A stretch of DNA of 54,356 nt, from NCBI GenBank assembly GCA_022562275.1, contig JADFPP010000013.1:1-54356 (forward strand). Reading direction: 5' to 3'. This DNA comes from Bacteroidota bacterium. Its GTDB lineage: Bacteria > Bacteroidota > Ignavibacteria > Ignavibacteriales > Ignavibacteriaceae. The notes below the pieces were generated by a model. It did no database searches and had not been told where the DNA came from. It saw only the letters and a program-made list of their open reading frames with translations. Below, piece after piece: positions 1 to 42,593 of this stretch; position 1 is the first letter of the stretch, and every line of letters begins with the position of its first letter. The position numbers and the translations under genes are program-made.

Positions 1-1205
1 CAGCTCTTCAACATTATCATAAAAGTTGTACCTTCACCGTGTACAGATGATTTTACAAATATTTTACCTCCGTGATATTCTTCGATAATTCTGTTTGCCA
101 GACTCAATCCTAAACCCCAACCTCGTCGCTTTGTACTATAACCGGGTCTGAATACATCTTTTCTTCTTTTTAAATCAATTCCCTTTCCACTGTCGGATAT
201 TTCGATCTCAACATATTTTTTTCTTTTGGTAATATAAATCTTTATCCATCCTGATTTATTTTCTATTGCGTCCAGAGCATTTTTAATTAGATTTTCAATT
301 ACCCATTCAAATAATTCCGGATTCATTTTAGCACAAACATTTTTATCCCCATCAATTGTTAAATCCACTATTTTACCAGTCTGTGGAAGCCGTCGTTCAA
401 AATAATCAATTACCTTTTTTAACTCCTCAAACACTATTTTATTTTTCATCTGAGGTTTTGAACCAATTTTTGAAAATCTATATGTAATCTTATTTAATTT
501 CTCAACGTCATCTGTTATTTCTTCTGCAACATCCAAAACTTTATCCGGTTCCTTATAGTGAAGTTTAAGCATTTCCAGCCAGCCCATTAAACTCGATATT
601 GGCGTACCAAATTGATGAGCGGTTTCCTTTGCCATTCCAACCCAAATGTTGCTTTGTTCACTCTTCTTTATGCTTCTGAAACCAATGTAACCAAGTAAAA
701 TAAATAATGTTGCAAGTACAATTTGTACATATGGGTAGTATCTTAATTGAGTAACAAATTCAGAATCTCCGTAATGGATTTTAGTTAGCACTAAAGTATC
801 TGCATAAATTACACGAATAGGTTCATGAACCTTATCCATTTCCAGTATTCTTTCAGTAATAAATCTTATAAATTCTTCTTCGGTATAAGATGTATCGTAA
901 TCAATGTTTCGTATATCGGTTCTGTTGTAAATGTTTACATTATCATTGGCATCGGTTAAGATAAGAGGGAAGTCGATTGGTTTTATAATGTTATCGAAAA
1001 GAAAAGTGATATCCTCGTTTGGATTGGAGGAATTTGCAATGTACTCAATCCCGCGTGCGTAAAGTTCAACTATTTCCTTTTCTTTTTTCTGCAGTTTCGA
1101 AACAAGACTTTGGGTATAAACCAAGGTTCCAACAGCAATCAGCAGAGCTGCAATTACAAGAAGAACCTTAATGTTAATTGAAGCCGGTCCGCCATACATT
1201 TTCAT
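1..1205 (-). CDS. Sensor histidine kinase, C-terminus cut by window edge
   Basis: An open frame of 401 codons runs off the left edge of the window, so the last residues are missing. It encodes a two-component sensor kinase. A membrane segment sits at about residues 10-28, followed by a roughly 130-residue probably extracytoplasmic sensor region, and a second membrane segment lies near 160-178. The H-box reads AKETAHQFGTPISSL. The ATPase domain shows an N-box (ENLIKNALDAIE), a G1 box (DSGKGI) and a G2 box (GWGLGLSLANRI). The start is ATG at 1205; a second in-frame ATG lies two codons later. No response regulator gene is visible beside it. The sensed signal is unknown. Family call is secure; the true end is outside the window. 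Confidence 0.88.
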   Translation of the reverse strand, partial: MKMYGGPASINIKVLLVIAALLIAVGTLVYTQSLVSKLQKKEKEIVELYARGIEYIANSSNPNEDITFLFDNIIKPIDFPLILTDANDNVNIYNRTDIRNIDYDTSYTEEEFIRFITERILEMDKVHEPIRVIYADTLVLTKIHYGDSEFVTQLRYYPYVQIVLATLFILLGYIGFRSIKKSEQSNIWVGMAKETAHQFGTPISSLMGWLEMLKLHYKEPDKVLDVAEEITDDVEKLNKITYRFSKIGSKPQMKNKIVFEELKKVIDYFERRLPQTGKIVDLTIDGDKNVCAKMNPELFEWVIENLIKNALDAIENKSGWIKIYITKRKKYVEIEISDSGKGIDLKRRKDVFRPGYSTKRRGWGLGLSLANRIIEEYHGGKIFVKSSVHGEGTTFMIMLKS

Positions 1206-2697: not shown

Positions 2698-3039
2698 TTA
2701 AGATGAAAATGTTTCGACAGCTTCGTCAACCGTATCGAATGATTCAAAAATAGTGATCAATTTTGTAATAATTAAAAGACTCTCAATTTTATCTGTAACC
2801 CGGGCTAGTTTTAACTGTCCATCAGCTTTCTTAACCGTTGTAAGTGCGCCAATTAACATACCCAAACCTGAACTATTCATAAATTTTACACCTGACAGAT
2901 CGATAACAACATGTTTCTTCCCTTTGTCCATCAATTTGTGTAAATACTCATTAAAATTTTTAGTATTTTCACCGCCCATCACATTTCCCTTTAATGCAAT
3001 AACAACGGCATTATATTTTTCAGTAGTTTTAATTTTCAT
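2698..3039 (-). CDS. STAS-domain anti-sigma factor antagonist (SpoIIAA/RsbV type)
   Basis: The whole 113-residue protein is one STAS domain. Such proteins bind and sequester an RsbW-type kinase when unphosphorylated and release it when phosphorylated on a conserved serine. The phosphorylation loop reads VIDLSGVKFMNSSGLGMLIG, with the acceptor serine expected in NSSGLG near residues 54-58. The C-terminal DTVDEAVETF is typical of the family. It is monocistronic, divergent from the ECF sigma gene, with a clear terminator. No kinase is adjacent; the nearest RsbW-like kinase is at 8031-8471, so cross-talk with that module is possible but is inference. Confidence 0.92.
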   Translation of the reverse strand: MKIKTTEKYNAVVIALKGNVMGGENTKNFNEYLHKLMDKGKKHVVIDLSGVKFMNSSGLGMLIGALTTVKKADGQLKLARVTDKIESLLIITKLITIFESFDTVDEAVETFSS

Positions 3040-3151: not shown

Positions 3152-3179
3152 GGAACAATCATTTAAGCACGGCGTCTAA
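3152..3179 (+). promoter_or_regulatory. Candidate ECF-type promoter of the sigma factor operon
   Basis: GGAAC at 3152-3156 is followed after 16 bases by CGTCTAA at 3173-3179. This matches the general -35 GGAAC and -10 CGTC pattern of promoters read by ECF sigma factors, and would fit autoregulation of the sigma gene that starts at 3183. Transcription would begin at or just inside the annotated ATG, which has no Shine-Dalgarno sequence, so the transcript might be leaderless or the real start might be downstream. A second GGAAC at 3126 has no matching -10. Confidence 0.42.
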
Positions 3180-3182
3180 AAA

Positions 3183-3779
3183 ATGAGTTCAAATAATAAT
3201 AGTAATGAAGAGTTGATTCAACCTCAGATACTTAAGTTAGATGATGATTTTTCTCTGGTAAAAAGATTTATAGACGGAGATGAATCAACATTCAGATTGC
3301 TGGTTCAAAGGCATCAGGAAAAAATTAGAAACATTATTTATCTGGTACTCAGCGATTCAGAAGTAGTAGATGATATTGCACAGGAAGTGATGATAACTAT
3401 TTATAAAAATCTTAAGAATTTCCGGTTTGAGTCACAGTTCACAACATGGTTTTACAGAATAACAGTTAATAAATGCAAAGATTATCTTAGAAAGAAAAAT
3501 GTAAGAAAAATTTTTGTACCAATAAAGGAAGCAAGTGAGAAATTTGAATATACTTCCTCTACAGAAGTAAATGATATCTCTGAAATTGTTATGGATGCAA
3601 TATCAAAATTGCCGGTTAAATTGAGGGTTCCGCTTCTGCTTAAAGATATCGAGGGATTCAGCTATCAGGAAATTGCACAAACAATAAATTGTGAAATGGG
3701 TACTGTTAAATCCAGAATTTACAGAGCGAGGGAAGGACTAAAAAAAATCCTTAAGCCAATGGAATCGGAGTTAAGCTAA
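3183..3779 (+). CDS. ECF-family RNA polymerase sigma factor (RpoE-like)
   Basis: This 198-residue protein has the two regions of an ECF sigma factor. Region 2 covers about residues 20-95 (FIDGDESTFRLLVQRHQ, then DIAQEVMITIYKNL and FTTWFYRITVNKCKDYLRK). Region 4 covers about 130-190 (LPVKLRVPLLLKDIEGFSYQEIAQ, then GTVKSRIYRAREGLKK). It would direct RNA polymerase to stress or envelope promoters. Its stop overlaps the start of the next gene by one base (TAATG), so it is translationally coupled to the candidate anti-sigma gene. The ATG at 3183 is not preceded by a ribosome site. The first 20 residues are weakly conserved, so a later start is possible. Confidence 0.95.
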   Translation: MSSNNNSNEELIQPQILKLDDDFSLVKRFIDGDESTFRLLVQRHQEKIRNIIYLVLSDSEVVDDIAQEVMITIYKNLKNFRFESQFTTWFYRITVNKCKDYLRKKNVRKIFVPIKEASEKFEYTSSTEVNDISEIVMDAISKLPVKLRVPLLLKDIEGFSYQEIAQTINCEMGTVKSRIYRAREGLKKILKPMESELS

Positions 3780-5377
3780 TGAGTAAAGTCAAAAAAGATT
3801 TTGAATTACTTTCTGCCTATCTTGATGGCGAGCTTTCTCCTAATGAAGTTGAGCAATTAAAACAAAAAATTAAATCTTCACTTGAATTGCAGAAAAAACT
3901 TGAAGATCTGCAGCAAATTAAAAAACTTACTTCATCTTCATTCAAAACCTTGCCGGAATCACCTTATTTTGAAACAAGACTGTTTGCACGGATAGAATTA
4001 CAAAAGGTCTGGTATAAAAGAGTGTTCAGGTGGTCACCCGCAATTGGGCTTGGTGCAATTACTATTATATTAATGGTAATTCTAAAATTTAATCCCGATG
4101 TTATTAATAATCTTATCAATCAGCAAAAATCAAATGTTGCTGGTTTTTATAAGGAGAACTTACAACCGCTGTTGTTTGCAGCAGATCTTAACAATGAAGA
4201 CATATTTAATTTTGCAATGTATAAACAGTTACCGCTTGATACTAAGGGAAAGCAATATATTCATCTCGGTTATGATGATGCGGGAAAAGAGTTTGTTGAA
4301 ATAAAAAATCTTGATATTGTTCAGGAAGAAAATAATTACGAAAAATTCCTGCTTGCCCTGGAGCTGAATGAAAATCAAATAAAACAGATGGATTCGATAA
4401 TTAATCAATATGCTGTAGAACTTGAAACCCAGATTCTTGTTAATACAAATAATACAGTTGCCATAAATTCCAACCTTTGGAACTATCAGCGGGCTATACA
4501 AAGCGATCTTCTAACCTTTGCAGAAAATTTCAATGAAAAAAAATTCCATAAGTTTGTACCAGCTGCCGTCTCTTTCTCTAAGAACCCGGTTGTAGTAAAT
4601 ATTGTTCGTGAGATAAGGACGGCACAAAATAATAATTATATTATCCTAACTCCCGATTCAATTTTTTCAGAAAATATTGAATTTGATCTTGAAGAGTACA
4701 AATCCTTTATGCGTGATTTTAAAGCTGAATTAAGCGAGCAGGATGCAGCGTTAAAGGGAAAGGAAATAGAATTAAAAGTAAAAGTTGGAAGACTAAATGC
4801 TATTAATTTTCATAGATATGATTCAAGCTGGAAAAAGTTAAAATACGATTATAGCTGGAACAAGAATTTTAAAATTAGTTTTGACTCCAATCTCTGCAGA
4901 GTGGAAATTTCGAATTTTAATATGCCTGTTATAAAAATACTGAATTTTGATAGTCTGTTCAGCGCCTTTGATAGTGTGGCGAACAACTTTAAGTTTTATT
5001 CCCAATTCATTCCAAGAATTGAACATTTGGATGATATGATTAAATTCCATTTTGATGGTGATTCTTCTAAATCATTTGAGTTTAAATATCGTGTTCAATT
5101 CGACACGGATTCTTTATTGGAAACCCACAGTGAACTTATGGATTCACTCAAATATTTTAACTGGAATAATTTTTATAACTTTAATGACTCATTGGCATTC
5201 AATAGTATTCCGGAATTTGATAAATTCTTTAATTTTAATGAAAGTAATGGCGAGCTTAGGTTGGAAATGAAGGAATTAAAAAAAGAATTGACGCAATTTA
5301 GACTTGAAATGAAGGATTGGAAGAAAAAATTCAAAAGACAATTTAAATCCCACGATAAATTGGAAGATGATTCGTAA
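3779..5377 (+). CDS. Membrane-anchored anti-sigma candidate with a large outer domain
   Basis: The gene is coupled to the ECF sigma gene by a one-base overlap, the usual position of an anti-sigma factor. Residues 1-75 resemble the cytoplasmic anti-sigma fold (FELLSAYLDGELSPNEVEQL, with helical content after it), but the histidine and CxxC of zinc-binding versions are missing. One membrane segment lies at about 86-103. The remaining 430 residues would be outside the cytoplasmic membrane and are rich in Phe, Asn, Asp and Lys. The last 40 residues are a charged probable coiled coil (ELRLEMKELKKELTQ and a second similar unit). The outer part matches no family I know. Function as sigma regulator is inferred from position and N-terminus. 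Confidence 0.72.
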   Translation: MSKVKKDFELLSAYLDGELSPNEVEQLKQKIKSSLELQKKLEDLQQIKKLTSSSFKTLPESPYFETRLFARIELQKVWYKRVFRWSPAIGLGAITIILMVILKFNPDVINNLINQQKSNVAGFYKENLQPLLFAADLNNEDIFNFAMYKQLPLDTKGKQYIHLGYDDAGKEFVEIKNLDIVQEENNYEKFLLALELNENQIKQMDSIINQYAVELETQILVNTNNTVAINSNLWNYQRAIQSDLLTFAENFNEKKFHKFVPAAVSFSKNPVVVNIVREIRTAQNNNYIILTPDSIFSENIEFDLEEYKSFMRDFKAELSEQDAALKGKEIELKVKVGRLNAINFHRYDSSWKKLKYDYSWNKNFKISFDSNLCRVEISNFNMPVIKILNFDSLFSAFDSVANNFKFYSQFIPRIEHLDDMIKFHFDGDSSKSFEFKYRVQFDTDSLLETHSELMDSLKYFNWNNFYNFNDSLAFNSIPEFDKFFNFNESNGELRLEMKELKKELTQFRLEMKDWKKKFKRQFKSHDKLEDDS

Positions 5378-5407
5378 TTAAATTTTAGCTGGTCCAATAA
5401 ATCTAAA

Positions 5408-5435
5408 AAACCGTCCGATATGGGCGGTTTTTTTT
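5408..5435 (+). terminator. Rho-independent terminator after the sigma/anti-sigma operon
   Basis: A nine-pair stem (AAACCGTCC and GGGCGGTTT, one G-U pair) with a five-base loop is followed by a run of T. It lies 30 bases after the anti-sigma stop. Confidence 0.87.
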
Positions 5436-5558
5436 AATCTTTTCAAATATCCTGAATTAACCCCGCTTATACTTCTTCTCTTTACATAATTTCAAAAAAA
5501 GTTTATTTTCACATACTCTTTCATTTTTTCTATCTGTATTTTGTTAAAATAAATATGA

Positions 5559-7712
5559 ATGACTAATTATACGAATTTGAATGCGGACAAAATAAATATT
5601 CTAGATAATATTCAGTTCAGGCTTTTTCTGGGTTCTTCAGGTGCATTACTGGTATTCAAACTATTATTCTCAGGGAGTGAACTGATAGTATATAAGCTTG
5701 TAACGGACTTATTAATAATATCAGCCATCTCGTTTCTTTTTTTATTTCTGATGGACATTTTTGAAAAGAGAAATGCAAGTCCGTTCTCTCTTATAATGAA
5801 CATTGGAATACTAAATGCATTTGTCTTCTTTTTAATTATGTTTTCTGATTCGATAATGTCTTTGCTCTTTGAAAATGTGAATGAGAAACTGAACAATCCA
5901 AGTTTGGTTTCTACTATTATTACACTTGCATATATTCTGTTAATTGTCGGATTTATTATATACGTATTTATAACTCTCAGGCATTTATTTTTTTTCAGGC
6001 AAAGCGGTTCCCAAAAAATATACTTTTACACAATGCTTGTTTTCTTTGTTCTTGCTTCATTAACAGCGCAGTATTTTGGAGCGAACGAATTATCTTTTAT
6101 AAGCGATACATTTATGATTATATCAGTTCTGCTGATGCTTTTAAACTCATTAAGGATTTCGTGGATTGCGTTTATTGTTAAAAAAGAAAAAATTGCTCTG
6201 CTTGTTCTCTCAATAGTAATTGCTGTTCTTTTTATTGTAAACCTAAATAATTCTGGTGATGCCACCGTTCACAGTAAAATGCTGAGCTCGATTTCTCCAT
6301 CATTAAAAGAGTTTACAGAGATTATAATGCTATACGCAGCTATATATTTCAGCGTGCTTTTCTTTACCACACTATTTCATATACCAACCGCTGAAGCATT
6401 TGACAGGAAAGCAGAAGAAGTTTCATCTTTACAATACTTTAGCAAACTTATTACCCAGGTACTGGAATATAATGAACTGGCTGATACAGTAACAGATATT
6501 ACTATAAGGGTAAGTGGTGCTAACGCTTCGTGGATAATCTGGAGAGAGAAAGATGAATTTATTTCTCTCGCAAATAAAAACATTGGTTTTATTGATTCGA
6601 ACTTGTTAAACAAGTTTATTTTAAGGAAAGTTGATTGGGAGAATTTGGATGATACAATATTCTTAAAACTGTCTGATATTGAAGTGCAATCAAAACTTAG
6701 CCAGAAGTTTCGGGCAATGGCAATATCCCCGTTAAAAGCGCATGGTAAGCTACAGGGTCTATTGGTAGCGATTTGTAAGGACGACAAAAAATTTAATGAA
6801 GAAGATAAAAATGCTATTGCCACATTTTCGGATTATGCTTCTATATCAATGGAAAATTCAAGATTGCTTGAGGAATCAATTGAAAAGGAACGACTGGAAA
6901 GGGAACTTGATGTTGCCAGAGAAATTCAGAGAAAAATAATTCCTGAAAAAAATCCGGAATATGAGGATCTTGAAATATCATCTGTCTTTGTGCCGGCTTT
7001 TGAGGTTGGAGGAGATTATTATGATTTTTTTAAAATATCAGAATCTAAACTTGGTATATTGATCGCTGATGTTTCCGGTAAAGGTATTTCCGCCGCATTT
7101 ATTATGGCAGAGATTAAGGGAATATTTGAATCACTTTCAAAAACAATTGAAAACCCAAGAGAGATTCTTATTAAAGCTAACGATATTTTAATAAGCACTT
7201 TAGATAGTAAAACCTTCGTAAGCGCAGCATACTGCTTGATCGATTTTAATGAAAGAAAATTGAATATAGCACGGGCAGGGCATTGCCCCGTGCTTCTCTT
7301 AAGAAACGATACCGCTCAAAGATTAAAACCTTCGGGCATGGGACTTGGTATGAGCAGAGAAAAACATTTTGAAGATACTCTTGATGAGTTAATAATTGAT
7401 TTAAAGGAAAACGATACTATTGTACTGTACACTGATGGAATAACGGAAGCTAAAAATGAGAACCTGGATGATTTTGGAGAAAAATATTTTACTGAAATCC
7501 TGCTTGAGAGCAGAAATAAAAGTTCAGATGAAATTTCTAAAAAAGTAATAAACGAAGTGTCTATGTTTGCAAAAAATCATTCGCAGTATGATGATATTAC
7601 TTTAGTAATTTTAAAATGGAAACCCCGTCATTCCGAAGAAAGAGGACGGGACAGGCAAAAAATTAAACTTAACGGAGAGAAAGAATGGCAGAATTCAGCA
7701 CAGCAATTATAG
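5559..7712 (+). CDS. Membrane-bound SpoIIE-type serine phosphatase with GAF domain
   Basis: This RsbU-like PP2C phosphatase should dephosphorylate a STAS protein and so release the RsbW target. About residues 20-280 hold some seven hydrophobic segments. A GAF-like domain follows at about 290-430, then a linker helix (ERLERELDVAREIQRKIIP) and the SpoIIE catalytic domain at about 465-685. Metal-binding motifs are VGGDYYDFF, DVSGKGISAAF, YTDGITEA and YDDITLVIL. The gene overlaps the STAS gene by 28 bases. The last 28 residues, after the usual end of the domain at ILKW, are an odd charged extension encoded partly by a hairpin at 7624-7650. The ATG at 5559 is used because an ATG four bases upstream meets a stop after two codons. 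Confidence 0.93.
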   Translation: MTNYTNLNADKINILDNIQFRLFLGSSGALLVFKLLFSGSELIVYKLVTDLLIISAISFLFLFLMDIFEKRNASPFSLIMNIGILNAFVFFLIMFSDSIMSLLFENVNEKLNNPSLVSTIITLAYILLIVGFIIYVFITLRHLFFFRQSGSQKIYFYTMLVFFVLASLTAQYFGANELSFISDTFMIISVLLMLLNSLRISWIAFIVKKEKIALLVLSIVIAVLFIVNLNNSGDATVHSKMLSSISPSLKEFTEIIMLYAAIYFSVLFFTTLFHIPTAEAFDRKAEEVSSLQYFSKLITQVLEYNELADTVTDITIRVSGANASWIIWREKDEFISLANKNIGFIDSNLLNKFILRKVDWENLDDTIFLKLSDIEVQSKLSQKFRAMAISPLKAHGKLQGLLVAICKDDKKFNEEDKNAIATFSDYASISMENSRLLEESIEKERLERELDVAREIQRKIIPEKNPEYEDLEISSVFVPAFEVGGDYYDFFKISESKLGILIADVSGKGISAAFIMAEIKGIFESLSKTIENPREILIKANDILISTLDSKTFVSAAYCLIDFNERKLNIARAGHCPVLLLRNDTAQRLKPSGMGLGMSREKHFEDTLDELIIDLKENDTIVLYTDGITEAKNENLDDFGEKYFTEILLESRNKSSDEISKKVINEVSMFAKNHSQYDDITLVILKWKPRHSEERGRDRQKIKLNGEKEWQNSAQQL

Positions 7713-8062
7713 ATAGAGGTGATGTAAGCGTGATCAATGTGTCCGGGTATCTCGATGCTCACACAGCGCCAACGCTTGAGAGTAATTTCACCGAATTAAT
7801 AGATAACAATAAGTTTAAGATTGTTGTAAACTTTAAAGATCTTGCTTACATAAGCAGCGCCGGGCTGGGGGTTTTTATGGCATATGTTGAAAAAATAAGA
7901 GATAACGCCGGCGATATTAAACTAACTAATATGAATGAAAAAGTTTATAACATATTTGACTTGCTTGGCTTCCCGTTATTGTATGAGATATTCAGTACGG
8001 AAGATGAGGCAGTAAACAAATTTAATAAGAGTGATAAAGTTGGGAACGACGAATCTAAATAA
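7685..8062 (+). CDS. STAS anti-anti-sigma factor (RsbV-like)
   Basis: This 125-residue STAS protein is the expected substrate of the phosphatases around it and of the RsbW-like kinase encoded next. The phosphorylation loop reads VNFKDLAYISSAGLGVFMAY, with the acceptor serine in ISSAGLG near residue 58. The C-terminus has the usual EIFSTEDEAVNKF. It starts inside the end of the preceding phosphatase gene, with GGAGAG about 5 bases before the ATG. It overlaps the next gene by 32 bases, so the three genes are translated as a tightly coupled set. Confidence 0.94.
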   Translation: MAEFSTAIIDRGDVSVINVSGYLDAHTAPTLESNFTELIDNNKFKIVVNFKDLAYISSAGLGVFMAYVEKIRDNAGDIKLTNMNEKVYNIFDLLGFPLLYEIFSTEDEAVNKFNKSDKVGNDESK

Positions 8063-8471
8063 AAGCGAAATAAGCGTTAAAAGTCGTACTGAAAATCTCT
8101 CGTTGATCAGGGATTTTGTCAGCAGTAAAACATCTGATGCGGGCTTAGCAAAGGATGAAATTGAAAATGTTATGCTTGCTGTGGATGAAGCTTGTACCAA
8201 TATAATAAAGCATGCATATAATTCATTTCCTGATGGCGAGATAGTTATTAAACTTGAATATAACTCCGATAAACTTCTTGTAACCATTATTGATCATGGT
8301 TCTACATTCGATCCGAATGGTATCCCGGATCCTGATTTACAAAAATATTATAGAGATGGCAGAGTTGGCGGTTTAGGTATGTTCTTGATGAAAACTTTAA
8401 TGGACGATGTTAAATATATTACAGTTCCAGGCAAGTACAACCAGGTACTGCTTTCAAAAAGAATAAATTAA
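8031..8471 (+). CDS. RsbW/SpoIIAB-like anti-sigma serine kinase
   Basis: This 146-residue protein is a GHKL ATPase of the RsbW class. The N-box is DEACTNIIKHAY, the G1 box is DHGSTFDP and the G2 box is GGLGMFLMKTL. Proteins of this class phosphorylate the STAS partner and, when the STAS partner is phosphorylated, bind and inhibit their own target. The start taken here is GTG at 8031, within the STAS gene; a TTG ten bases downstream is out of frame by sequence and was not used. No sigma-B-like gene is encoded nearby, so the protein inhibited by this kinase is not known. Confidence 0.93.
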   Translation: MIKLGTTNLNKSEISVKSRTENLSLIRDFVSSKTSDAGLAKDEIENVMLAVDEACTNIIKHAYNSFPDGEIVIKLEYNSDKLLVTIIDHGSTFDPNGIPDPDLQKYYRDGRVGGLGMFLMKTLMDDVKYITVPGKYNQVLLSKRIN

Positions 8472-8482
8472 TCTCATAATTA

Positions 8483-10162
8483 ATGAATGATAAAGGTAAT
8501 CTTAAACTAAAAAGAGATTTAACATCTCTTGTGGATTTTAGCAGAATAATAAACTTCAGTATAGATCTCCAGTTTATTCTTAACAATGTTCTTCTCACAT
8601 GCCTCGGAAAATTTTTATCGACGAAGGGTCTGATAGCTTTAAGCGAGAATGGGAAGATCGAGTTAAAGATTTCTAAGGGATTAAGTAACAGTACGATTGA
8701 TAAATTCCCGGTGCTGGAAGCCAATGAAGATTGTCTGAAAGATGAAAGACTTAAAAATTTTATGATATCATCAAAACTGAAAGCTGTAGAGAAAATAGTT
8801 TCATCGGAAGATTGTATTGGAATGGTTTGCCTGGGTGAAAAATTAAATAAAACAGAATACACCCGGGACGACCTTGAATTTTTTAGAACAATCCTGAATA
8901 TATCGGCAACTGCAATTCAAAACTCTATAAGGATCAATGAATTACAGGGTGTTAATCGCCAACTGGATTCGAAGATACAGAGACTAAATGCTCTCTTCGA
9001 GCTAAGTAAAGAATTCGGGCTGTTTTCAGAATCAACTAAAGTAGCAAAGCTTCTGGTGTTTTCTATAATCGGGCAGTTCATGGTTTCAAAATTTGCAGTT
9101 GTAAGTTTTAATGGTGATGATATTGAAATTCTCGATTCAAAATTTGATAGTAATAAACTGGTAGAAGATTTAAAGCAATGTGATTGTGGTATGATCACAA
9201 GCCCTCTAAACAGATCGGAAGTGTTAAATACCTATCCACTCTTAGGTGAGATGGGAGTAAACCTTATTGTTCCTATGGAAGTGCAGGGCAAAACAAAAGG
9301 ATTGATATTGCTGGGTGAAAGAATTAACAAACAACCCTACACCAATTCTGATATTGAGTTCATTTATTCGGTTGGAAGTCTTGCAATAATATCTCTGGAA
9401 AACAAAAGATTGTTTCTTGAAGAATTAGTAAAGCAAAAGATGGAAGAAGAGCTGGAAATTGCCAGGGAGATTCAGCAAAATTTATTACCCCAAACTCTAC
9501 CCCGGTTTAGTAATTTTGATATGGCTGCAGTTAATATGTCATCGAAACAAGTGGGCGGAGATTATTATGATGTTATAACTCTGGATGATAACAGATTTTG
9601 TGTGGCAATTGCAGATGTGTCCGGAAAAGGTGCACCCGCATCTTTACTTATGGCAAATATCCAGGCTTTCCTGCAGGTTATCTGCAGACTGGATTTAAAT
9701 ATAGTCGATTCAACTGCGCTAATAAATGATTTGATTTTTGCAAATACAAGCGACGGAAGATTTATTACTTTCTTTTGGGCAGTTGTAAATAATGAAGAGA
9801 GAAAATTAACCTATGTTAATGCCGGGCACAATCCTCCGTTGTTAATTAGAGATGGTAAAATAACCAAGCTTAAGAAGGGAGGTATTATTTTTGGAGTGGT
9901 CGAGAGCACAATACCTTATATTTCTGAAACATTAAGTTTGCAAAAAGATGATGTTATTGTATTGTTTACCGATGGAATTTCAGAAGCTATGAATAAAAGA
10001 GAAGAAGAATATTCTGATGAAAGATTGGAGGAGACTGCAATAAGATTAGCTTCAGGCACAGTTAATGAAATTCTGGAAGGTATTAAAAAGGAAGTTTACG
10101 AATTCGCAAATGGTGCTCCTCAATCCGATGATATTACGATGGTTGTTATAAAAGTGAAGTAA
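8483..10162 (+). CDS. Soluble SpoIIE-type phosphatase with two GAF-like domains
   Basis: This 559-residue RsbU-like phosphatase has no membrane segment. Two GAF-like sensor regions lie at about residues 10-150 and 170-310. They end in similar strings (LGEKLNKTEYTRDDLEFF and LGERINKQPYTNSDIEFI), which suggests an internal duplication. A linker helix (EEELEIAREIQQNLLP) leads into the PP2C domain at about 345-555 with VGGDYYDVI, DVSGKGAPASL, AGHNPPLL, FTDGISEAM and SDDITMVVI. It begins 11 bases after the kinase gene and is part of the same operon. It would feed a cytoplasmic signal into the same STAS partner; that link is inferred from gene order. Confidence 0.94.
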   Translation: MNDKGNLKLKRDLTSLVDFSRIINFSIDLQFILNNVLLTCLGKFLSTKGLIALSENGKIELKISKGLSNSTIDKFPVLEANEDCLKDERLKNFMISSKLKAVEKIVSSEDCIGMVCLGEKLNKTEYTRDDLEFFRTILNISATAIQNSIRINELQGVNRQLDSKIQRLNALFELSKEFGLFSESTKVAKLLVFSIIGQFMVSKFAVVSFNGDDIEILDSKFDSNKLVEDLKQCDCGMITSPLNRSEVLNTYPLLGEMGVNLIVPMEVQGKTKGLILLGERINKQPYTNSDIEFIYSVGSLAIISLENKRLFLEELVKQKMEEELEIAREIQQNLLPQTLPRFSNFDMAAVNMSSKQVGGDYYDVITLDDNRFCVAIADVSGKGAPASLLMANIQAFLQVICRLDLNIVDSTALINDLIFANTSDGRFITFFWAVVNNEERKLTYVNAGHNPPLLIRDGKITKLKKGGIIFGVVESTIPYISETLSLQKDDVIVLFTDGISEAMNKREEEYSDERLEETAIRLASGTVNEILEGIKKEVYEFANGAPQSDDITMVVIKVK

Positions 10163-10192
10163 AGACTTTGTTAATTATTTAATTGCTTACGA

Positions 10193-12754
10193 ATGAAAAA
10201 GATAAAAGCAACATATCTTAGATCAAAACCAAAACTGATCGTTGTACTTTCACTGATATTAATAACGATAGCAGTTATCAATATATATTTTGTTCTGGAA
10301 GTGAGGGTAACAAGCAATGATGAATGCCTCTGGGTGCAGAAAAAAATTACGCAGGATAGTACAGTCATATTTTTCAGCCTGGTAAAGGTTAACGGCGTAA
10401 CCTGGGATGCCGGCATAAGGAACGGCGACGAACTTGTGGCTATAAATAACAAAATGGTTCACAACACAGGCAAAGCACAAGTAATTTTAAATTCAGTTAA
10501 AAGCGGTGATTACGCTGATTATACAGTAGTAAAACCAAACGGGGAAATTTTGCAAACCAAAGTAAGGATTAAGAAACTTATACATTATAGCAACCTTGCT
10601 AATACTCTGAATTCTTTGTTCTGGATGCTGATCGGATTTATTGTTCTGACTTCAAAACCTGAAGGAAGAATACAGAAACTGTTTTATGCAATAGGTGCAT
10701 TTGCAGTTTTAGCATCCATGAATGTACTTATCCCTCAAAGTTTTGAATTCTTCAGATTCGTTCAGGAAAACCCGTTACTTGCATTAATAATTAATATCCT
10801 CTGGATATCCGGCTTAAGTTTTTTACCGTTTATATTACTCTACTTTTTCTGGAACTTTCCTCAGCCATTTAAGTTTGCGCAAAAAAAATGGCTGAAAAGG
10901 TTAATGTTTATTGCACCGGCGATAATTGCCGTAGTTTCAATAGTAAATATAAATCAGGCGGTAAATTATCCTAGAGTTAATTTAAGTGCCTTCCTTATCA
11001 ATTTATATTTTCTTTTAGGTTTGTTAATTATAACAAACTTAGCATCATTCATATTTTTAATAATTCAATACAGAAAGCTAAGAACAAAACAGCAGAAAAA
11101 GCCGATACTCCTTATACTATTTGCTTTTGCATTTGGGATCGCAGTTTCCATTTATGCTGCAACGATTGCTCCGGCTATTGCAGATTCCATTTTTAACTCT
11201 CCCGAATATTTTGCACCCATATTACTTGTTGCATTAGTACCCCTGATTTTTGCTTATGCCGTGTTCAAATACCAGTTGATGGACGTTAGCGTGGTTGTTA
11301 AAAACACTGTTATTTACGGTGTAGCTACATTAACTATTGCAGCTATCTATTTTGTAGTTATTTATATATTAGGACAAAGTATAAGTAAAGCCATCGGCAC
11401 AGAAAACCAGGGAATCATTGCAGGAATTCTGTTCATTATATTTGCCATTATTTTCCAATCAACGAAAGACAGGTTCCAGGATTTTCTTACCCGGAAGTTT
11501 TATCCCGAGCAGTTTGCTCATCAAAAAGTCCTAATTAATTTAAGCAACGAACTAGCTACAGTTGTGGGTTTGGAAAACATCCTTGAGATGATGAACAAAA
11601 CATTTGTGAATGCTCTTAAAATTAATACCTTCGGGATATTGATCAGAGATAAAGAAGGCGTTTTTAGACTGGTTAAAAGTGTTGGCATAAATGAAGAAGC
11701 TTGCATAATTACAAGATCAAACATTGCACAGTTTTTAAAAGAAAGATCGTTGATTGCAAAATATCCTGCAATTTGTCAGCCGGATTTCAAAAATGTTTTC
11801 CCGGATATGGCAGACCGGTTAATTGAAGAGGAAATTTACATCGTAATCCCAATGATTATTAAAAACAAGATTGTGGGTTTATTGATCTTCGGATTGAAGC
11901 ATTCAGGTTCACAATTTGCTGGAAAGGATGTTGAGCTATTATGGGCTGCTGCAAATCAAGCGGCGGTATCAATTGAGAATGCACGTTTGTATAAATCGGA
12001 AGCGGAAAAATTAAAAATAGAAAGAGACCTTGACCTTGCGCGCAAAATTCAGGAAGGATTGTTACCTACCAGCATTCCTGAAATAAGAAACCTTGATATC
12101 AGCGGCGAGATGATTCCTGCTATGCAGGTTGGCGGCGATTATTATGATCTGCTTCCTGTAAACGGATCTGATAGTAAATTATATGTTATCATCGGTGATG
12201 TTTCGGGAAAAGGACTTGCCGCTTCACTTTATATGACGAAACTCCAGACTATGGTGCAGTTCGCATGTACATCGGATACAAGTCCGAAAGAAATATTGGT
12301 AGAAATAAACAAAAGGATTTACCGTGAAATGGAGCGTAATTGGTTTATAACAATGTCAATTGCTTATTTTGATCTTGAAAAAAACATAGTAAAATTTTGC
12401 CGTGCAGGGCATATGCCTTTATTAACAGCTATTAACGGTACTGTTCAATCTCACCGCACACAGGGGATAGGAGTTGGATTGGAAAAAGGTAACATATTTG
12501 AAAAATCATTGATGGAAGAAGAACTGGAATTAAAACCCGGGCAAACCTTTGCATTCTTTACGGATGGAATTACTGAAGCAATGAATGAGCAGCAGGATAT
12601 GTTTGGTGAAGATAAACTTTCCTCAATACTAAAAAGCAAATCTTTTCAACGTTCCACTGAAATTATGGATGAGATCTGGTCTTCTATAAATACTTTCCGC
12701 GGCACCGCCGAAGTTAATGATGATATGACTATGGTTATTGTTAAAGTGAAATGA
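10193..12754 (+). CDS. PDZ-membrane-GAF SpoIIE-type phosphatase
   Basis: The 853-residue protein begins with a membrane segment at about 18-36. An extracytoplasmic PDZ-like domain follows at about 60-125 (VTWDAGIRNGDELVAINNK). Then come seven or eight membrane segments (about 138-415), a GAF-like domain (about 445-600), a linker helix (ERDLDLARKIQEGLLP) and the PP2C domain to the end. Catalytic motifs are VGGDYYDLL, DVSGKGLAASLY, FTDGITEAMN and NDDMTMVIV. It lies 30 bases after the preceding phosphatase and closes the operon. The PDZ domain suggests sensing of protein termini outside the membrane, as inference. Its last 96 bases have a diverged copy at 13841-13936. Confidence 0.92.
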   Translation: MKKIKATYLRSKPKLIVVLSLILITIAVINIYFVLEVRVTSNDECLWVQKKITQDSTVIFFSLVKVNGVTWDAGIRNGDELVAINNKMVHNTGKAQVILNSVKSGDYADYTVVKPNGEILQTKVRIKKLIHYSNLANTLNSLFWMLIGFIVLTSKPEGRIQKLFYAIGAFAVLASMNVLIPQSFEFFRFVQENPLLALIINILWISGLSFLPFILLYFFWNFPQPFKFAQKKWLKRLMFIAPAIIAVVSIVNINQAVNYPRVNLSAFLINLYFLLGLLIITNLASFIFLIIQYRKLRTKQQKKPILLILFAFAFGIAVSIYAATIAPAIADSIFNSPEYFAPILLVALVPLIFAYAVFKYQLMDVSVVVKNTVIYGVATLTIAAIYFVVIYILGQSISKAIGTENQGIIAGILFIIFAIIFQSTKDRFQDFLTRKFYPEQFAHQKVLINLSNELATVVGLENILEMMNKTFVNALKINTFGILIRDKEGVFRLVKSVGINEEACIITRSNIAQFLKERSLIAKYPAICQPDFKNVFPDMADRLIEEEIYIVIPMIIKNKIVGLLIFGLKHSGSQFAGKDVELLWAAANQAAVSIENARLYKSEAEKLKIERDLDLARKIQEGLLPTSIPEIRNLDISGEMIPAMQVGGDYYDLLPVNGSDSKLYVIIGDVSGKGLAASLYMTKLQTMVQFACTSDTSPKEILVEINKRIYREMERNWFITMSIAYFDLEKNIVKFCRAGHMPLLTAINGTVQSHRTQGIGVGLEKGNIFEKSLMEEELELKPGQTFAFFTDGITEAMNEQQDMFGEDKLSSILKSKSFQRSTEIMDEIWSSINTFRGTAEVNDDMTMVIVKVK

Positions 12755-13274: not shown

Positions 13275-13610
13275 TCAATAAGGAATGGTAACTTCCTGTA
13301 AATATTTTCTCTTTGCAGACCTCATAATTTGATTTGATAATTTTGGAGGTCGGTAGTTTATTTTTGGTGTTTGTTGCAATTTCCAACCTTGTTTTAGTAA
13401 GTACTTCTCCAAAGTTCCTTTCTTAGCTGTTTCTTCTATGAATATGTTTATTTCATTTTTAAAAGATGCTAACGCTTCCTTTTCTTTTTTACCGTATGCT
13501 GATAATTCGAGTGCGGGGCAATATGCTACAAAATATTCATCCTCTCTAAGAATTACAACATCAACTTCGATTTTGATTGATTTACCGTTTGAGTGTATTC
13601 TGTTCGTCAC
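13275..13610 (-). CDS. hicB: HicB-like antitoxin
   Basis: The 111-residue protein has a HicB-type partial RNase H fold at residues 13-60. It reads VDVVILREDEYFVAYCPALE, then LSAYGKKEKEALASFKNEINIF. A C-terminal tail (GTLEKYLLKQGWKL and a basic end) replaces the usual short DNA-binding domain. HicB normally neutralises HicA and represses the operon. The frame opens with GTG at 13610; no earlier ATG exists and the ribosome site is weak, so the start is uncertain. Transcription converges on hicA, so each transcript that runs on would be antisense to the other. Confidence 0.7.
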   Translation of the reverse strand: MTNRIHSNGKSIKIEVDVVILREDEYFVAYCPALELSAYGKKEKEALASFKNEINIFIEETAKKGTLEKYLLKQGWKLQQTPKINYRPPKLSNQIMRSAKRKYLQEVTIPY

Positions 13611-23831: not shown

Positions 23832-25082
23832 ATGAAGCAGCAATACCTTTTTCGGCTAACTGTACTACCATTCTTAATTTTTTTATTATCATTAATAACA
23901 CTAGACACTTTTGCACAAACTCAGGATAAAATTTACACCACAGAAGAAACGACGATCTCTGGCGGTGCAGAGTTTAACATCATGCTCCAGGAAGCCATCC
24001 GTAACGGGAATGTTGATAAATTTATCTATTCAGGTAATTTTACTTCACCAACACCTAATTCACTAAATACAGTAACCACCTTCGATGGGTTTGACTACGA
24101 TGATAATCCAATATTCAATGGTGGAATCAGCTTTATCCCTCCGGACCCAAGCGGTGTTGGGGGTTTGGATAGGGTTATTGCTGTCGTCAATACAATGATT
24201 GAATGTCGGGATACAACGGGTATTTTACTTTGGCAGGATGATCTTGCAGGATTTTTTACTTCTCTTACTCCTACAACTTTTACATTCGATCCTAAAGTGA
24301 TTTACGATCAGTATGAAAATCGTTTTGTAGTTGTAGATTTGGAAATATTCGAAGTTGCATCGGGCACGGACCCAGGCAACATATCTCGAATTTTCTTGGC
24401 GGTTTCCAAAACCAGTACACCGGCAACCGCTACCAGTACAGATTGGTGGTATACTGCTATTGATGCTAAAGAAGTTATCGGTGGGGCAGATCATTGGGCG
24501 GATTATCCAGGTTTCGCGATTGATGAGGAGGCTGTTTATGTAACTGCTAATATGTTTTCTCATGTTGATGGTATTTTTGGTGGAACGAGACTATGGATTA
24601 TTGATAAAGGTGTGGCAGGTGGATTTTATGGAGGAGGTGCAGCAACAGTAACTGGTGGGTGGGACTTCCCTGGCTTAACAGGTGGATCTGCCGGGACACA
24701 TCAACCTGCTCATGTTTTTGGTTCAACTGGAGTAGCTACAGGAGTTGGAACTTTTCTTGTTAAGTATAGTGGATTAACGACGGGAGGACCAGGCGGCACA
24801 GAAGCAATTCAAGTAATACGAGTAGATGATCCATTAGGATCACCAACATTTGTTGGCCCTGAATTTGTTTCAATGGGAGATATAGAAGATTTAGGCGGGG
24901 TCTTTGGATTTCCTGCATTACCTGATGCACCGCAGTTAGGTTCCGGAACTGAAATTGAAGTAAATGACAGACGAACTTTACATGCCGTATGGAGAAACAA
25001 TTCCCTTTGGTTGACAACTACTATAAATCCAAATTCCGGTCCAGGTATTAGGACAAACAACTGCTCACTGGGTTCAGCTTAA
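23832..25082 (+). CDS. Type IX cargo protein, 5' part of a frameshifted gene
   Basis: A signal peptide is clear (basic start, hydrophobic core ending LDTFAQ near residue 29), and AAGGAG sits five bases before the ATG. The mature part has repeated Gly/Thr/Asp-rich beta-like stretches (GGISFIPPDPSGVGGLDRVIAVVNT, cut here, and ENRFVVVDLEIFEVASG). It looks like an exported beta-propeller-like surface protein of the kind common in this group; I cannot name its activity. The frame ends at 25082 after residues that do not fit. Dropping one base near 25048 restores a frame continuing directly into the next entry (GIGQTTAHWV), so both entries are one gene of about 745 codons. Confidence 0.85.
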   Translation: MKQQYLFRLTVLPFLIFLLSLITLDTFAQTQDKIYTTEETTISGGAEFNIMLQEAIRNGNVDKFIYSGNFTSPTPNSLNTVTTFDGFDYDDNPIFNGGISFIPPDPSGVGGLDRVIAVVNTMIECRDTTGILLWQDDLAGFFTSLTPTTFTFDPKVIYDQYENRFVVVDLEIFEVASGTDPGNISRIFLAVSKTSTPATATSTDWWYTAIDAKEVIGGADHWADYPGFAIDEEAVYVTANMFSHVDGIFGGTRLWIIDKGVAGGFYGGGAATVTGGWDFPGLTGGSAGTHQPAHVFGSTGVATGVGTFLVKYSGLTTGGPGGTEAIQVIRVDDPLGSPTFVGPEFVSMGDIEDLGGVFGFPALPDAPQLGSGTEIEVNDRRTLHAVWRNNSLWLTTTINPNSGPGIRTNNCSLGSA

Positions 25083-25092
25083 TACAACAACT

Positions 25093-26070
25093 TTGGGTTC
25101 AACAACATTAACCGATCAGGGTGATGTAGGAGGTGAAGATATTGCATCAGGTACCTTTACTTTCTTCCCTGCTATTGCAGTTAACATCAATGAGGATGTA
25201 ATAATCGGTTTTTCAGCCTCAGCTCCCACAATTTTTCCCGGTGCCTATTATGCAGGTAGATTTGTTGGAGATCCTGCAGGTACTGTAAACCCATCTGTAG
25301 TAGTAAGAGCCGGTTTAGATTATTATGTTCGGACATTTGGAGAATCGAGAAATAGATGGGGTGATTATACCGGTGCAAGTGTTGATCCTAACGATGATAA
25401 ATCGTTTTGGATATTCAATGAATATGCATCGACCAGGGGATCACCGACAGGTATTCCTCCCGAAGATGGCAGATGGGGAACTGTTTATGCACATGTTCCT
25501 CTGAGTGATTTACCTGTTGAACTCACTTCATTTGCAGCTACGGTTGATGAAGCTGATGTTACGCTCAGCTGGTCAACAGCCACTGAAACTAACAACCAGG
25601 GATTTGAAATTCAGAGGAGTAAAGCTGAAAATGAATATGAAAAAATTGGTTATGTACCTGGTCACGGAACAACTACAGAAATTCAAACATATTCATACAC
25701 CGATTCAAAAGTAGCCAGTGGTAATTATACTTACCGCTTAAAACAAATAGATTACGACGGTACAATTGATTATTCGAATGAGGTAGCTGTGGAAGTAACT
25801 GCCCCACTTGAATTTGTATTGGAGCAAAACTATCCCAATCCGTTTAATCCAAGTACGTTAATAAAGTATTCAATTCCTGAGAATGGATTTGTTAATCTGG
25901 ATGTATATAATTTACTTGGAGAAAAGGTTGCATCACTTGTAAACTCAGTTCAGGAAGCAGGCAGATATGAGGTAAATTTTGATGCCTCAGAACTTGCAAG
26001 CAGTATATATGTTTACAGCTTAAAATCAGGCAGCTTTAATTCAGTTAAAAAGATGCTTCTGATGAAGTGA
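25093..26070 (+). CDS. Type IX cargo protein, 3' part of the frameshifted gene
   Basis: This segment has no ribosome site or true start of its own; the reading frame is open from about 25048 and continues the preceding entry. It holds the rest of the beta-rich domain (VNINEDVIIGFSAS and NRWGDYTGASVDPNDDKSFW). A fibronectin-like linker follows at about residues 135-245. The type IX sorting domain is at about 250-325, with EQNYPNPFNPSTLIKYSIP, YNLLGEKVASLV and the ending KKMLLMK. The protein would be exported by Sec, then taken across the outer membrane by PorSS and attached or released. The linker is nearly identical to that of the next gene. Confidence 0.85.
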   Translation: MGSTTLTDQGDVGGEDIASGTFTFFPAIAVNINEDVIIGFSASAPTIFPGAYYAGRFVGDPAGTVNPSVVVRAGLDYYVRTFGESRNRWGDYTGASVDPNDDKSFWIFNEYASTRGSPTGIPPEDGRWGTVYAHVPLSDLPVELTSFAATVDEADVTLSWSTATETNNQGFEIQRSKAENEYEKIGYVPGHGTTTEIQTYSYTDSKVASGNYTYRLKQIDYDGTIDYSNEVAVEVTAPLEFVLEQNYPNPFNPSTLIKYSIPENGFVNLDVYNLLGEKVASLVNSVQEAGRYEVNFDASELASSIYVYSLKSGSFNSVKKMLLMK

Positions 26071-41360: not shown

Positions 41361-42593
41361 ATGAATCAAAAAAAATTATATAAACTTGTAGAAACAATCG
41401 CTTCACAACGCTTTTCTTCGGAAGAGAAACTGCTTACAGAAGTTCTTGACCAAATTGTTGAAAATGAAAATATAAAAATTACCAGCGGTAGGATTTGGAA
41501 ATTAAACCGGGAAAAACGATCCTATAAAATTATTTATCAAACCGGAATATTTGAAAAGTTGAAACGAGGTTTTGAGATAAAAGTAGGTGAGTATCCCACA
41601 TTCGATTTGATTACAAAAGAACGAACAATTTTAGGTAATGAAACACACAAAGTATTGATAGAAAAAGGAATATTTAAATACTCTGCTTCTGGTGTTGGTT
41701 CAAAATTAAAAATAAATGATCATTGTTACTACGAATACATTCTTGCTTTGAACAGTGATAAGATTGACAATGAATTAAGACTAAATCTAAATATAATTGC
41801 AACCGCACTAACATCTCAAATAAAGCAAAGAAGATATTCTGCAAGCGCATCTCATCTTAAAGCAGATATTGATAAAGCCAGACAGCTGCAAAAAAGTATT
41901 CTCCCCGAACATGAACATAGGTTTGGCGATTATGAAATTTATGGTGTTACCAGTCCTGCCGAAATTGTGGGCGGTGATTTCTTCGATTACTTAGAAGCCG
42001 GAGAGGAAAGTGAACGGCTTGGTATTGTGGTAGGCGACGCAGCCAGTAAAGGTGTAGGTGCTGCTGCTGAAGCAATGTATATATCTGGAGCATTAAGAAT
42101 GGCAAGTAGTTTTGAGATAAAAATTTCTCCGATTATGCGAAGGATGAATCAACTTGTTAATAGAATATTTGAAGATGATAAGTTTGCTTCATTATTTTAC
42201 GGTGAACTTTCCATGCATAAAGGTGGATTATTTCTTTACGCTAATGCAGGTCACAATCCTCCGATTTTTTACAAAGCTGAATCCGGTAAGATTGAAATTT
42301 TAGATACAACCGGTCCGCTTCTTGGTCCCGTACCCAACGCTCCATATTACATTGAAAGTATTAATTTTTCTAAAGGAGATGTGTTGTTGTTATTTTCCGA
42401 TGGAATAACAGAAACTTCTGATTCTAAATTTGAGCAGTATGGTGATGACAGACTAATAAATATATTTAAAGAAGTGAGTTCTTTTTCATCAAAAGAAATT
42501 GTTTTGAAAATATTGGATGATGTAGTTATTTATTCGAAGAATGGCAGCTACTCCGATGATAAAACTTTAGTTGCAATTAAAAGAATTGACTGA
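41361..42593 (+). CDS. Soluble SpoIIE-type phosphatase with GAF-like N-terminus
   Basis: The 410-residue protein has an N-terminal GAF-like sensor (about 5-160) and a linker (KADIDKARQLQKSILPEHEH). The PP2C domain covers about 190-408, with VGGDFFDYL, DAASKGVGAAAEAM, AGHNPPIF, FSDGITETSD and SDDKTLVAI. In DVSGKG the Val-Ser pair is replaced by Ala-Ala-Ser-Lys, and DDITLV by DDKTLV. The metal-binding aspartates are kept. It is the fourth intact phosphatase of this type in the window, but it is separate from the STAS/kinase block. Confidence 0.92.
   Translation: MNQKKLYKLVETIASQRFSSEEKLLTEVLDQIVENENIKITSGRIWKLNREKRSYKIIYQTGIFEKLKRGFEIKVGEYPTFDLITKERTILGNETHKVLIEKGIFKYSASGVGSKLKINDHCYYEYILALNSDKIDNELRLNLNIIATALTSQIKQRRYSASASHLKADIDKARQLQKSILPEHEHRFGDYEIYGVTSPAEIVGGDFFDYLEAGEESERLGIVVGDAASKGVGAAAEAMYISGALRMASSFEIKISPIMRRMNQLVNRIFEDDKFASLFYGELSMHKGGLFLYANAGHNPPIFYKAESGKIEILDTTGPLLGPVPNAPYYIESINFSKGDVLLLFSDGITETSDSKFEQYGDDRLINIFKEVSSFSSKEIVLKILDDVVIYSKNGSYSDDKTLVAIKRID

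Follow-up and report, generated by a model that had tools for sequence, protein, structure and literature searches.

A partner switch with several phosphatase inputs, found on a contig of 54,356 nucleotides (hereafter the window), may have an output that in this order is coupled to an adjoining ECF sigma factor and not to sigma-B, a reading to which a probability of about 0.5 is given. The original prediction had portrayed a five-gene block standing without a sigma-B/F-type gene, and had missed an ECF sigma factor and membrane anti-sigma pair that adjoins the block and is conserved alongside it across the order. The ECF is the most economical candidate for the output because it is linked to the block and because its anti-sigma has lost the sigma-binding domain in one clade. 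On this reading, an old multi-input switch came to be joined to an ECF sigma factor, whose anti-sigma it may have replaced in one branch.

With its 54 kb, the window is one of the 148 contigs of a 3.4-Mb genome (100 percent complete, 2.7 percent contaminated). It was compared with a class sample of 294 genomes, 59 of them in the window's order, apparently Ignavibacteriales. A total of 58 loci were fetched around the block within the order, from what appear to be Ignavibacteriaceae (the window's family, 23 loci) and Melioribacteraceae (33) and from the sister family of the latter (2), and 22 stretches around the kinase were opened outside the order. Genome searches took a limited number of best-scoring candidates per genome. 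The ORF caller gave no kinase (KIN) in two of the 58 order loci and in six of the 22 outside, in all of which tblastn finds it.

To begin with, all five predicted ORFs of the block were found on the forward strand with their motifs intact. The first, P1 (5559-7712, 717 aa), combines membrane helices, a GAF domain and a SpoIIE phosphatase (Pfam), and is followed by STAS2 (7685-8062, 125 aa, Pfam STAS 4e-17), an RsbV/SpoIIAA-like protein with the phospho-acceptor motif YISSAGLGVF, and by the RsbW-like kinase KIN (8031-8471, 146 aa, GTG start, HATPase_c_2 7e-30). Further on lie P2 (8483-10162, 559 aa), a soluble SpoIIE phosphatase with GAF, probably double (Pfam), and P3 (10193-12754, 853 aa), in which TM1, a PDZ domain, nine further TM segments, GAF, a coiled coil and a SpoIIE phosphatase succeed one another. 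The genes do overlap or nearly touch, by 28 bp (P1/STAS2) and 32 bp (STAS2/KIN), with the next gaps measuring 11 and 30 bp. The phospho-acceptor serine of STAS2 was kept throughout 70 aligned sequences, window included, 69 reading YISSAGLGVF and one YINSAGLGVF. In KIN, where the motifs DEACTN and GGLG are present in the alignment, the N-box (D52, E53, A54 and N57) and the glycine box (G113, G114 and G116) were invariant over 39 sequences. Its closest solved structure in a profile search against the PDB was RsbW (6m36, 2e-25), and it scored 91.7 on the RsbW equivalog model, below the cut-off of 145. Every part required for partner switching is therefore in the block, and phosphorylation of the STAS protein by the kinase, with the ensuing change of partner, is predicted from these sequences. 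The window's genome is rich in STAS (11 matches) and SpoIIE (13 matches) genes, and two further small RsbW-like kinases occur on contigs C77 and C76 (at L054 2518-3292 and L053 6549-8924); one precedes its own STAS gene, and the other is bounded upstream by a 636-aa protein, for which NCBIfam gave nothing at E ≤ 1e-5, and downstream by a malate-dehydrogenase-like gene.

The three phosphatases carry different sensors, as had been claimed, and share the SpoIIE domain (Pfam E 1e-40 to 3e-44) with intact acidic metal-binding motifs (GGDYYD, DVSGKG, DG and DD). For P1, at least six hydrophobic helices were found, and the GAF assignment holds through the family (GAF_2 in 17 of 22 members), the GAF of the window's own protein scoring 20.1 bits, under the Pfam cut-off. 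P2 had been described as a soluble double-GAF protein: it is soluble-looking, with one hydrophobic window, and has one clear GAF (GAF_3, 22/22 members), while the second GAF is represented by only two stretches of the DgcA model, which leaves 'double' likely rather than settled. The combination of PDZ, membrane part and GAF in P3 was confirmed. Its PDZ domain (residues about 40-129; 10310-10579, forward strand) is placed by family matches (PDZ_6 in 38/40 members, under the cut-off in the window's protein) and by the predicted fold. The model (mean pLDDT 83.8, pTM 0.58) shows a helix at 2-37, PDZ-like strands and helices at 40-129, membrane helices to about residue 436, GAF, and then the coiled coil (578-622) and the phosphatase. 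Ten TM segments whose positive loops alternate to the inside predict that the PDZ domain lies outside the membrane and the phosphatase inside; an eleventh hydrophobic window (550-568) was counted as part of GAF and not as TM. In fold comparison, with aligned rows spanning about residues 618-853, the phosphatase domain resembled SiaA (Z 28.7, rmsd 2.6, 241 aligned) and the RsbU part of Rv1364c (Z 26.2, rmsd 2.3, 216 aligned). Literature searches joining PDZ domain, SpoIIE, phosphatase and GAF found nothing.

Elsewhere in the window, a further soluble SpoIIE phosphatase (41361-42593, forward strand) lies away from the block, with a variant second motif that does not match DVSGKG, beside a large hybrid sensor on the reverse strand (42744-45623), which reads as PAS/GAF-like with a histidine kinase and a receiver. 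A small reverse-strand protein at 13275-13610 reads as HicB-antitoxin-like; neither Pfam nor NCBIfam matched it at E ≤ 0.1. Moreover, two adjacent forward-strand ORFs at 23832-26070 read like one interrupted secreted protein, the second having a sorting-tail-like end that, by reading, recurs almost unchanged in the 26210-28846 protein.

The absence of a local sigma-B/F-type gene was borne out, none being found in the window or in its own genome, and the genome search for a sigma-B-like factor that the original prediction had proposed as a check returned none in any of the 294 class genomes either. With the best nine candidates per genome scored on the SigBFG model, none of the 294 genomes of the class reached E ≤ 1e-50 or exceeded the cut-off, B. 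subtilis being detected as the positive control. Four region-3 sigma factors of the window's own genome exceeded the cut-off for that region, all of them RpoD-like; they scored 113-125 bits on SigBFG, whose cut-off is 234. One RpoD-like sigma gene (L052 7861-9819, contig C107) is flanked by two divergent STAS genes with the motifs DSTFFG and DSTFLG, and is a candidate second partner-switch target; a similar sigma on C8 has a neighbouring STAS gene with three stops.

Upstream of the block and on the same strand, the ECF/anti-sigma pair ends 181 bp before P1. The ECF sigma factor (3183-3779) matches Sigma70_r2 (2.5e-16) and r4_2 (7.5e-16) and exceeds the cut-off of TIGR02937; it thus has regions 2 and 4, with no Pfam match to region 3. 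The membrane anti-sigma (3779-5377) consists of an N-terminal sigma-binding domain (residues 1-84; 3779-4030; zf-HC2 24.4 bits, cut-off 22.2), one TM segment (residues 86-104) and a large extracytoplasmic part, and with its helical sigma-binding domain and TM it was assigned to class I. Among 19 aligned family members, RseA_N matched in seven and the HxxxCxxC zinc motif was absent from all rows. The best PDB profile matches were RsiW and RseA, both weak (E 0.01 and 0.033), another anti-sigma profile gave nothing useful against the PDB, and a fold search with the anti-sigma model gave nothing at E ≤ 0.001, RsiW and MucA appearing at E about 1 with probabilities of 0.93-0.96. On the other side of the ECF, a single-domain STAS gene, STAS1 (2698-3039, reverse strand, Pfam STAS 6e-18), and purA downstream of it (1327-2598) together diverge from the ECF; each was found in 49 of the 58 order loci, with NSSGLG or NSTGLG as the STAS1 motif. 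The interval between anti-sigma and P1 holds a terminator-like hairpin (5405-5433, forward strand; 1 found, 0.1 expected) and a sigma-70-like promoter TTTACA-N17-TATTTT (5481-5509, forward strand), the latter not above chance (1 found, 1.6 expected in shuffles). In many Ignavibacteriaceae loci a CCG-pyrimidine-TTAT-like stretch followed by CTTTACA was seen by eye upstream of P1 (about 5460-5510 in the window), which may mark a distinct promoter and a site for a regulator. The window's ECF keeps a class I anti-sigma, and its transcription unit is probably separate from the block.

Conservation of the gene order, the other check proposed, showed that the block and the adjoining ECF pair are kept together across the order. 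A KIN ortholog (E ≤ 1e-25) was found in 166 of the 294 class genomes, including 59/59 of the order, which indicates that the block is more than a chance arrangement. The ECF stood beside the block in 54 of the 58 order loci (19/23 in Ignavibacteriaceae, 33/33 in Melioribacteraceae and 2/2 in the sister family), and an ECF ortholog was present in 57/59 order genomes at E ≤ 1.3e-86, the next best match, outside the order, having 1.2e-66. Genomes G207 and G269 have no such ECF genome-wide, yet the block is kept. Among the four loci without it, L103 and L143 are genome-wide absences; in L148 a contig break falls inside P1, and the ECF, the anti-sigma and the start of P1 lie together on contig C122; in L104 the contig starts 1.0 kb before P1 without the anti-sigma, and the ECF and its anti-sigma lie next to purA at the end of a different contig. 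A 64-aa ORF in L103 was considered as an anti-sigma scar and rejected, the match being weak (E 0.006) and lying over a coiled-coil-like stretch.

The core has a different setting outside the order. There, two phosphatases surround the STAS protein and the kinase: P1 and P2 were each present in 19/22 and P3 in 0/22 (counted in kinase loci only), P3 occurring in 49/58 order loci. No ECF was found in 21 of these 22 kinase stretches, and the remaining one (L169) has a different ECF about 6 kb away. Contigs named Calditrichota and KSB1 also bear the core or most of it. Conversely, 16 ECF loci were opened outside the order, coming from 15 of the 64 non-order genomes that match at E ≤ 1e-45 and picked mostly for high scores; two of them (L312 and L313) represent a lower-scoring group with short anti-sigmas. 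In 16/16 of these, the next protein had a sigma-binding-domain match plus a TM segment, 14/16 matched the full anti-sigma profile, 13/16 had the promoter described below and 0/16 had the kinase in the stretch. The ECF module and the switch module are thus apart in the loci opened outside the order and joined within it.

After the joining, the two branches of the order differ in the anti-sigma. The sigma-binding domain was kept in 20/20 Ignavibacteriaceae proteins, window included, and was absent from 31/31 of those of Melioribacteraceae and the sister family, where 15-25 residues precede the reference column of the TM segment vs 89-99 in Ignavibacteriaceae. A profile of this domain, 19 of whose rows come from Ignavibacteriaceae, matched 46 of 48 genomes of that family at E ≤ 1.1e-18 and gave 0 matches better than 5.7e-10 in 48 genomes of the other two families; the weak matches there look like other anti-sigmas by frame length, one such locus (L319) being opened. 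Furthermore, the whole anti-sigma gene was missing in 4/33 Melioribacteraceae loci (L115, L137, L149 and L150), and no anti-sigma was found at E ≤ 0.01 anywhere in genomes G049, G277, G009 and G263, two positive controls being detected. Since L115 stands apart in the tree from L137, L149 and L150, at least two gene losses are implied. A tree of P1, P2, STAS2 and KIN supported Ignavibacteriaceae (0.999), Melioribacteraceae with the sister family (1.0) and the order (1.0) as clades; because the two families form one clade and all 16 opened outgroup loci keep an anti-sigma with a domain match and a TM segment, the loss appears to be a derived trait that postdates the union of the modules. By parsimony it looks like a single domain loss on the stem of Melioribacteraceae and the sister family, after the modules met. 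Other accounts of the missing domain were explored: a split domain hidden between ECF and anti-sigma was sought in three frames in six loci, including the four with the largest gaps, and no open stretch as long as the domain appeared, nor did genome searches of the two families find a relocated domain or gene.

The interval before P1 also differs between the branches, measuring 0-105 bp in 28/29 Melioribacteraceae loci (the 487-bp gap of L108 being accounted for by a split P1 ORF) and 124-374 bp in 18/18 of Ignavibacteriaceae. Terminator-like hairpins were found in 6/18 Ignavibacteriaceae intervals plus the window vs 28/360 shuffles, which keep base counts only. Distance correlations between ECF and KIN reached a partial r of 0.82 in Melioribacteraceae, where all 11 tested pairs, STAS1 included, correlate after purA correction, and 0.37 (p 0.13) in Ignavibacteriaceae (n=10), where five of the 11 pairs miss p 0.05. 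Group-specific sites were five relaxed, four fixed only in Melioribacteraceae and the sister family, and two switched in the ECF, and one fixed, two relaxed and none switched in KIN; this comparison of ECF and KIN sites gave no clear interface signal.

An ECF-type promoter, GGAAC-N16-CGTCTAA, was found by pattern match at 3152-3179 of the window (forward strand), three bases before the ATG of the ECF. The pattern GGAAC-N15-17-CGTC occurred at the ECF start in 47/54 loci plus the window, and in 0/343 control regions of equal size, which were taken in the same loci where seven further genes or parts of genes begin. In 42/47 loci, CGTC stands 4-8 nt ahead of the start codon. G269 retains the promoter site though its ECF is gone. 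Genome-wide, a stricter motif showed no excess over its reversed control (103 matches vs 111 in 96 genomes), and among the 59 genomes whose locus is known it matched 66 times, 42 times at the locus and 24 times elsewhere; the window's own genome had two matches, the second at chance level. Self-activation is therefore likely, and a large regulon with the strict consensus is not indicated. For the window, the promoter predicts self-activation and a nearly leaderless transcript, its use by this ECF being inferred. The strict promoter was missing in three of the four anti-sigma-free loci: in L137, L149 and L150, which form one branch, the strict GGAAC element is gone and CGTC is kept, as if the specificity of the ECF had drifted.

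The following mechanism is proposed, drawing on family knowledge for its first three steps and on gene context only for the fourth and for the loop. Signals at the membrane (P1), in the cytoplasm (P2) or in the periplasm (P3, through its PDZ domain) would activate a phosphatase, which would dephosphorylate STAS2, whereupon STAS2 would capture KIN; with STAS2 phosphorylated, KIN would be free to hold its target. It is tentatively suggested that this target is the ECF, if not throughout the order then in Melioribacteraceae and the sister family, where the ECF's own anti-sigma domain has been lost. The freed ECF would then act on the GGAAC/CGTC promoter to transcribe its own operon, and in these two families the switch would be transcribed along with the ECF, closing a positive loop. 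In Ignavibacteriaceae, as in the window, the block would form a second, neighbouring layer beside an ECF with a class I anti-sigma, and since that anti-sigma is present and the transcription unit is likely separate, the coupling there may be looser. The domain loss in one branch suggests that the switch took over control of the ECF. As one possible history, put forward with reserve, the modules would have been joined in the ancestor of Ignavibacteriales and the RsbW-family kinase would have become the ECF's anti-sigma, the domain and then, in some genomes, the gene being discarded in Melioribacteraceae and the sister family, which would leave a partner-switched ECF that is self-activating and has three sensors.

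Several observations weigh against a contact between KIN and the ECF. RsbW and SpoIIAB complexes contact region 3 of their sigma factors, and ECFs are without region 3. Moreover, the core exists outside the order without the ECF, and G207 and G269 keep the block without it; the window has a hairpin before P1 and an ECF that retains its anti-sigma; ECF-KIN does not stand out from the other pairs in the distance correlations; and the lack of the strict promoter coincides with the lack of the anti-sigma in three of four loci. The published results on RbaW and on RsbW-like controls, given below, point the same way.

A serious alternative, which may account for the data but falls well short of being probable, is that the target of the switch lies elsewhere in the genome and is the ancestral one, such as a group-2 RpoD-like sigma factor or a non-sigma protein, and that the ECF is a mere neighbour which, where operonic, sets the amount of switch made. 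Because the kinase core occurs outside the order without this ECF (P1 and P2 beside KIN in 19/22 each, no ECF of this family), its ancestral target must have been something else, and the two order genomes that keep the block without the ECF, as well as the extra RpoD-like sigmas of the genome, one flanked by two STAS genes, fit such a target. However, this would leave unexplained why one clade lost the anti-sigma domain once the ECF was linked to the block, and why the adjacency is conserved. It is rather unlikely that the output is the STAS protein itself, an arrangement reported for SypA and RbaV and reviewed in PMC8256260. The near invariance of STAS2 about its phospho-acceptor, and the second STAS gene of 49/58 order loci, would fit this, but no candidate receptor was found and both the ECF association and the domain loss would go unexplained. 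Finally, a standard sigma-B general stress switch with its sigma-B gene elsewhere, which the domain set and the rsbU-V-W-like gene order would fit, can be set aside as extremely improbable, since no SigBFG factor was found in the window's genome or in the 294 class genomes searched, and the region-3 sigmas of the window's genome are all RpoD-like.

Coupling to the ECF, the preferred reading, sets the system beside several known ones. The phospho-acceptor STAS protein, the GHKL kinase closest to RsbW, the SpoIIE phosphatases and the overlapping genes are shared with RsbU-RsbV-RsbW of Bacillus, unlike which no sigma-B was found in the class sample, three phosphatases stand in the block and an ECF is its neighbour. 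An ECF followed by a membrane class I anti-sigma recalls RpoE/RseA and SigW/RsiW, and pairs of these types have an ECF-type promoter before them, as here; the difference lies in the joining to a partner switch and in the sigma-binding domain being gone in Melioribacteraceae and the sister family. The nearest precedent for an ECF with U, V and W components is the btr locus of Bordetella, for which PMC7498569 describes the ECF BtrS, the anti-sigma BtrA and BtrU/V/W in one locus, and in whose account BtrU, BtrW and BtrV are all required for secretion, none being a negative regulator. The locus studied here departs from it in its three phosphatases, in the ECF-type promoter standing where the ECF gene begins and, in one clade, in an anti-sigma that has lost its domain. 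PhyR-NepR-EcfG is alike in placing an ECF under partner-switching control and differs in that a response regulator, working with a histidine kinase, mimics the sigma factor, as outlined in PMC8999054.

RbaV-RbaW-RbaY of Rhodobacter capsulatus is likewise a partner switch without a known sigma target. It differs in that its RsbW homologue RbaW was negative in two-hybrid assays with both ECF sigmas examined in PMC3999984, where the genes of the switch are not shown next to an ECF. In that assay RbaW was also negative with RpoD and RpoHI and bound RbaV, and its authors note possible insolubility. RsbW-like proteins served as a control in PMC7406223, being referred to there as never described to bind ECFs, and the same source gives an adjacent class I anti-sigma for 6 percent of Bacteroidetes ECFs vs 32 percent when all phyla are taken together. 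According to PMC8256260, several partner switches that lack a sigma-B have no known target. Literature searches linking Ignavibacteri with partner-switching, or Melioribacter with anti-sigma, found nothing.

Overall, comparative genomics gives a specific and testable target for a partner switch that lacks sigma-B, and the order together with its relatives offers a natural series in which the modules are apart, joined, deprived of the inhibitor domain and deprived of the inhibitor gene. If KIN binds the ECF, control of the RsbW type would extend to ECF sigma factors, and such binding could help to explain the scarcity of adjacent class I anti-sigmas for Bacteroidetes ECFs.
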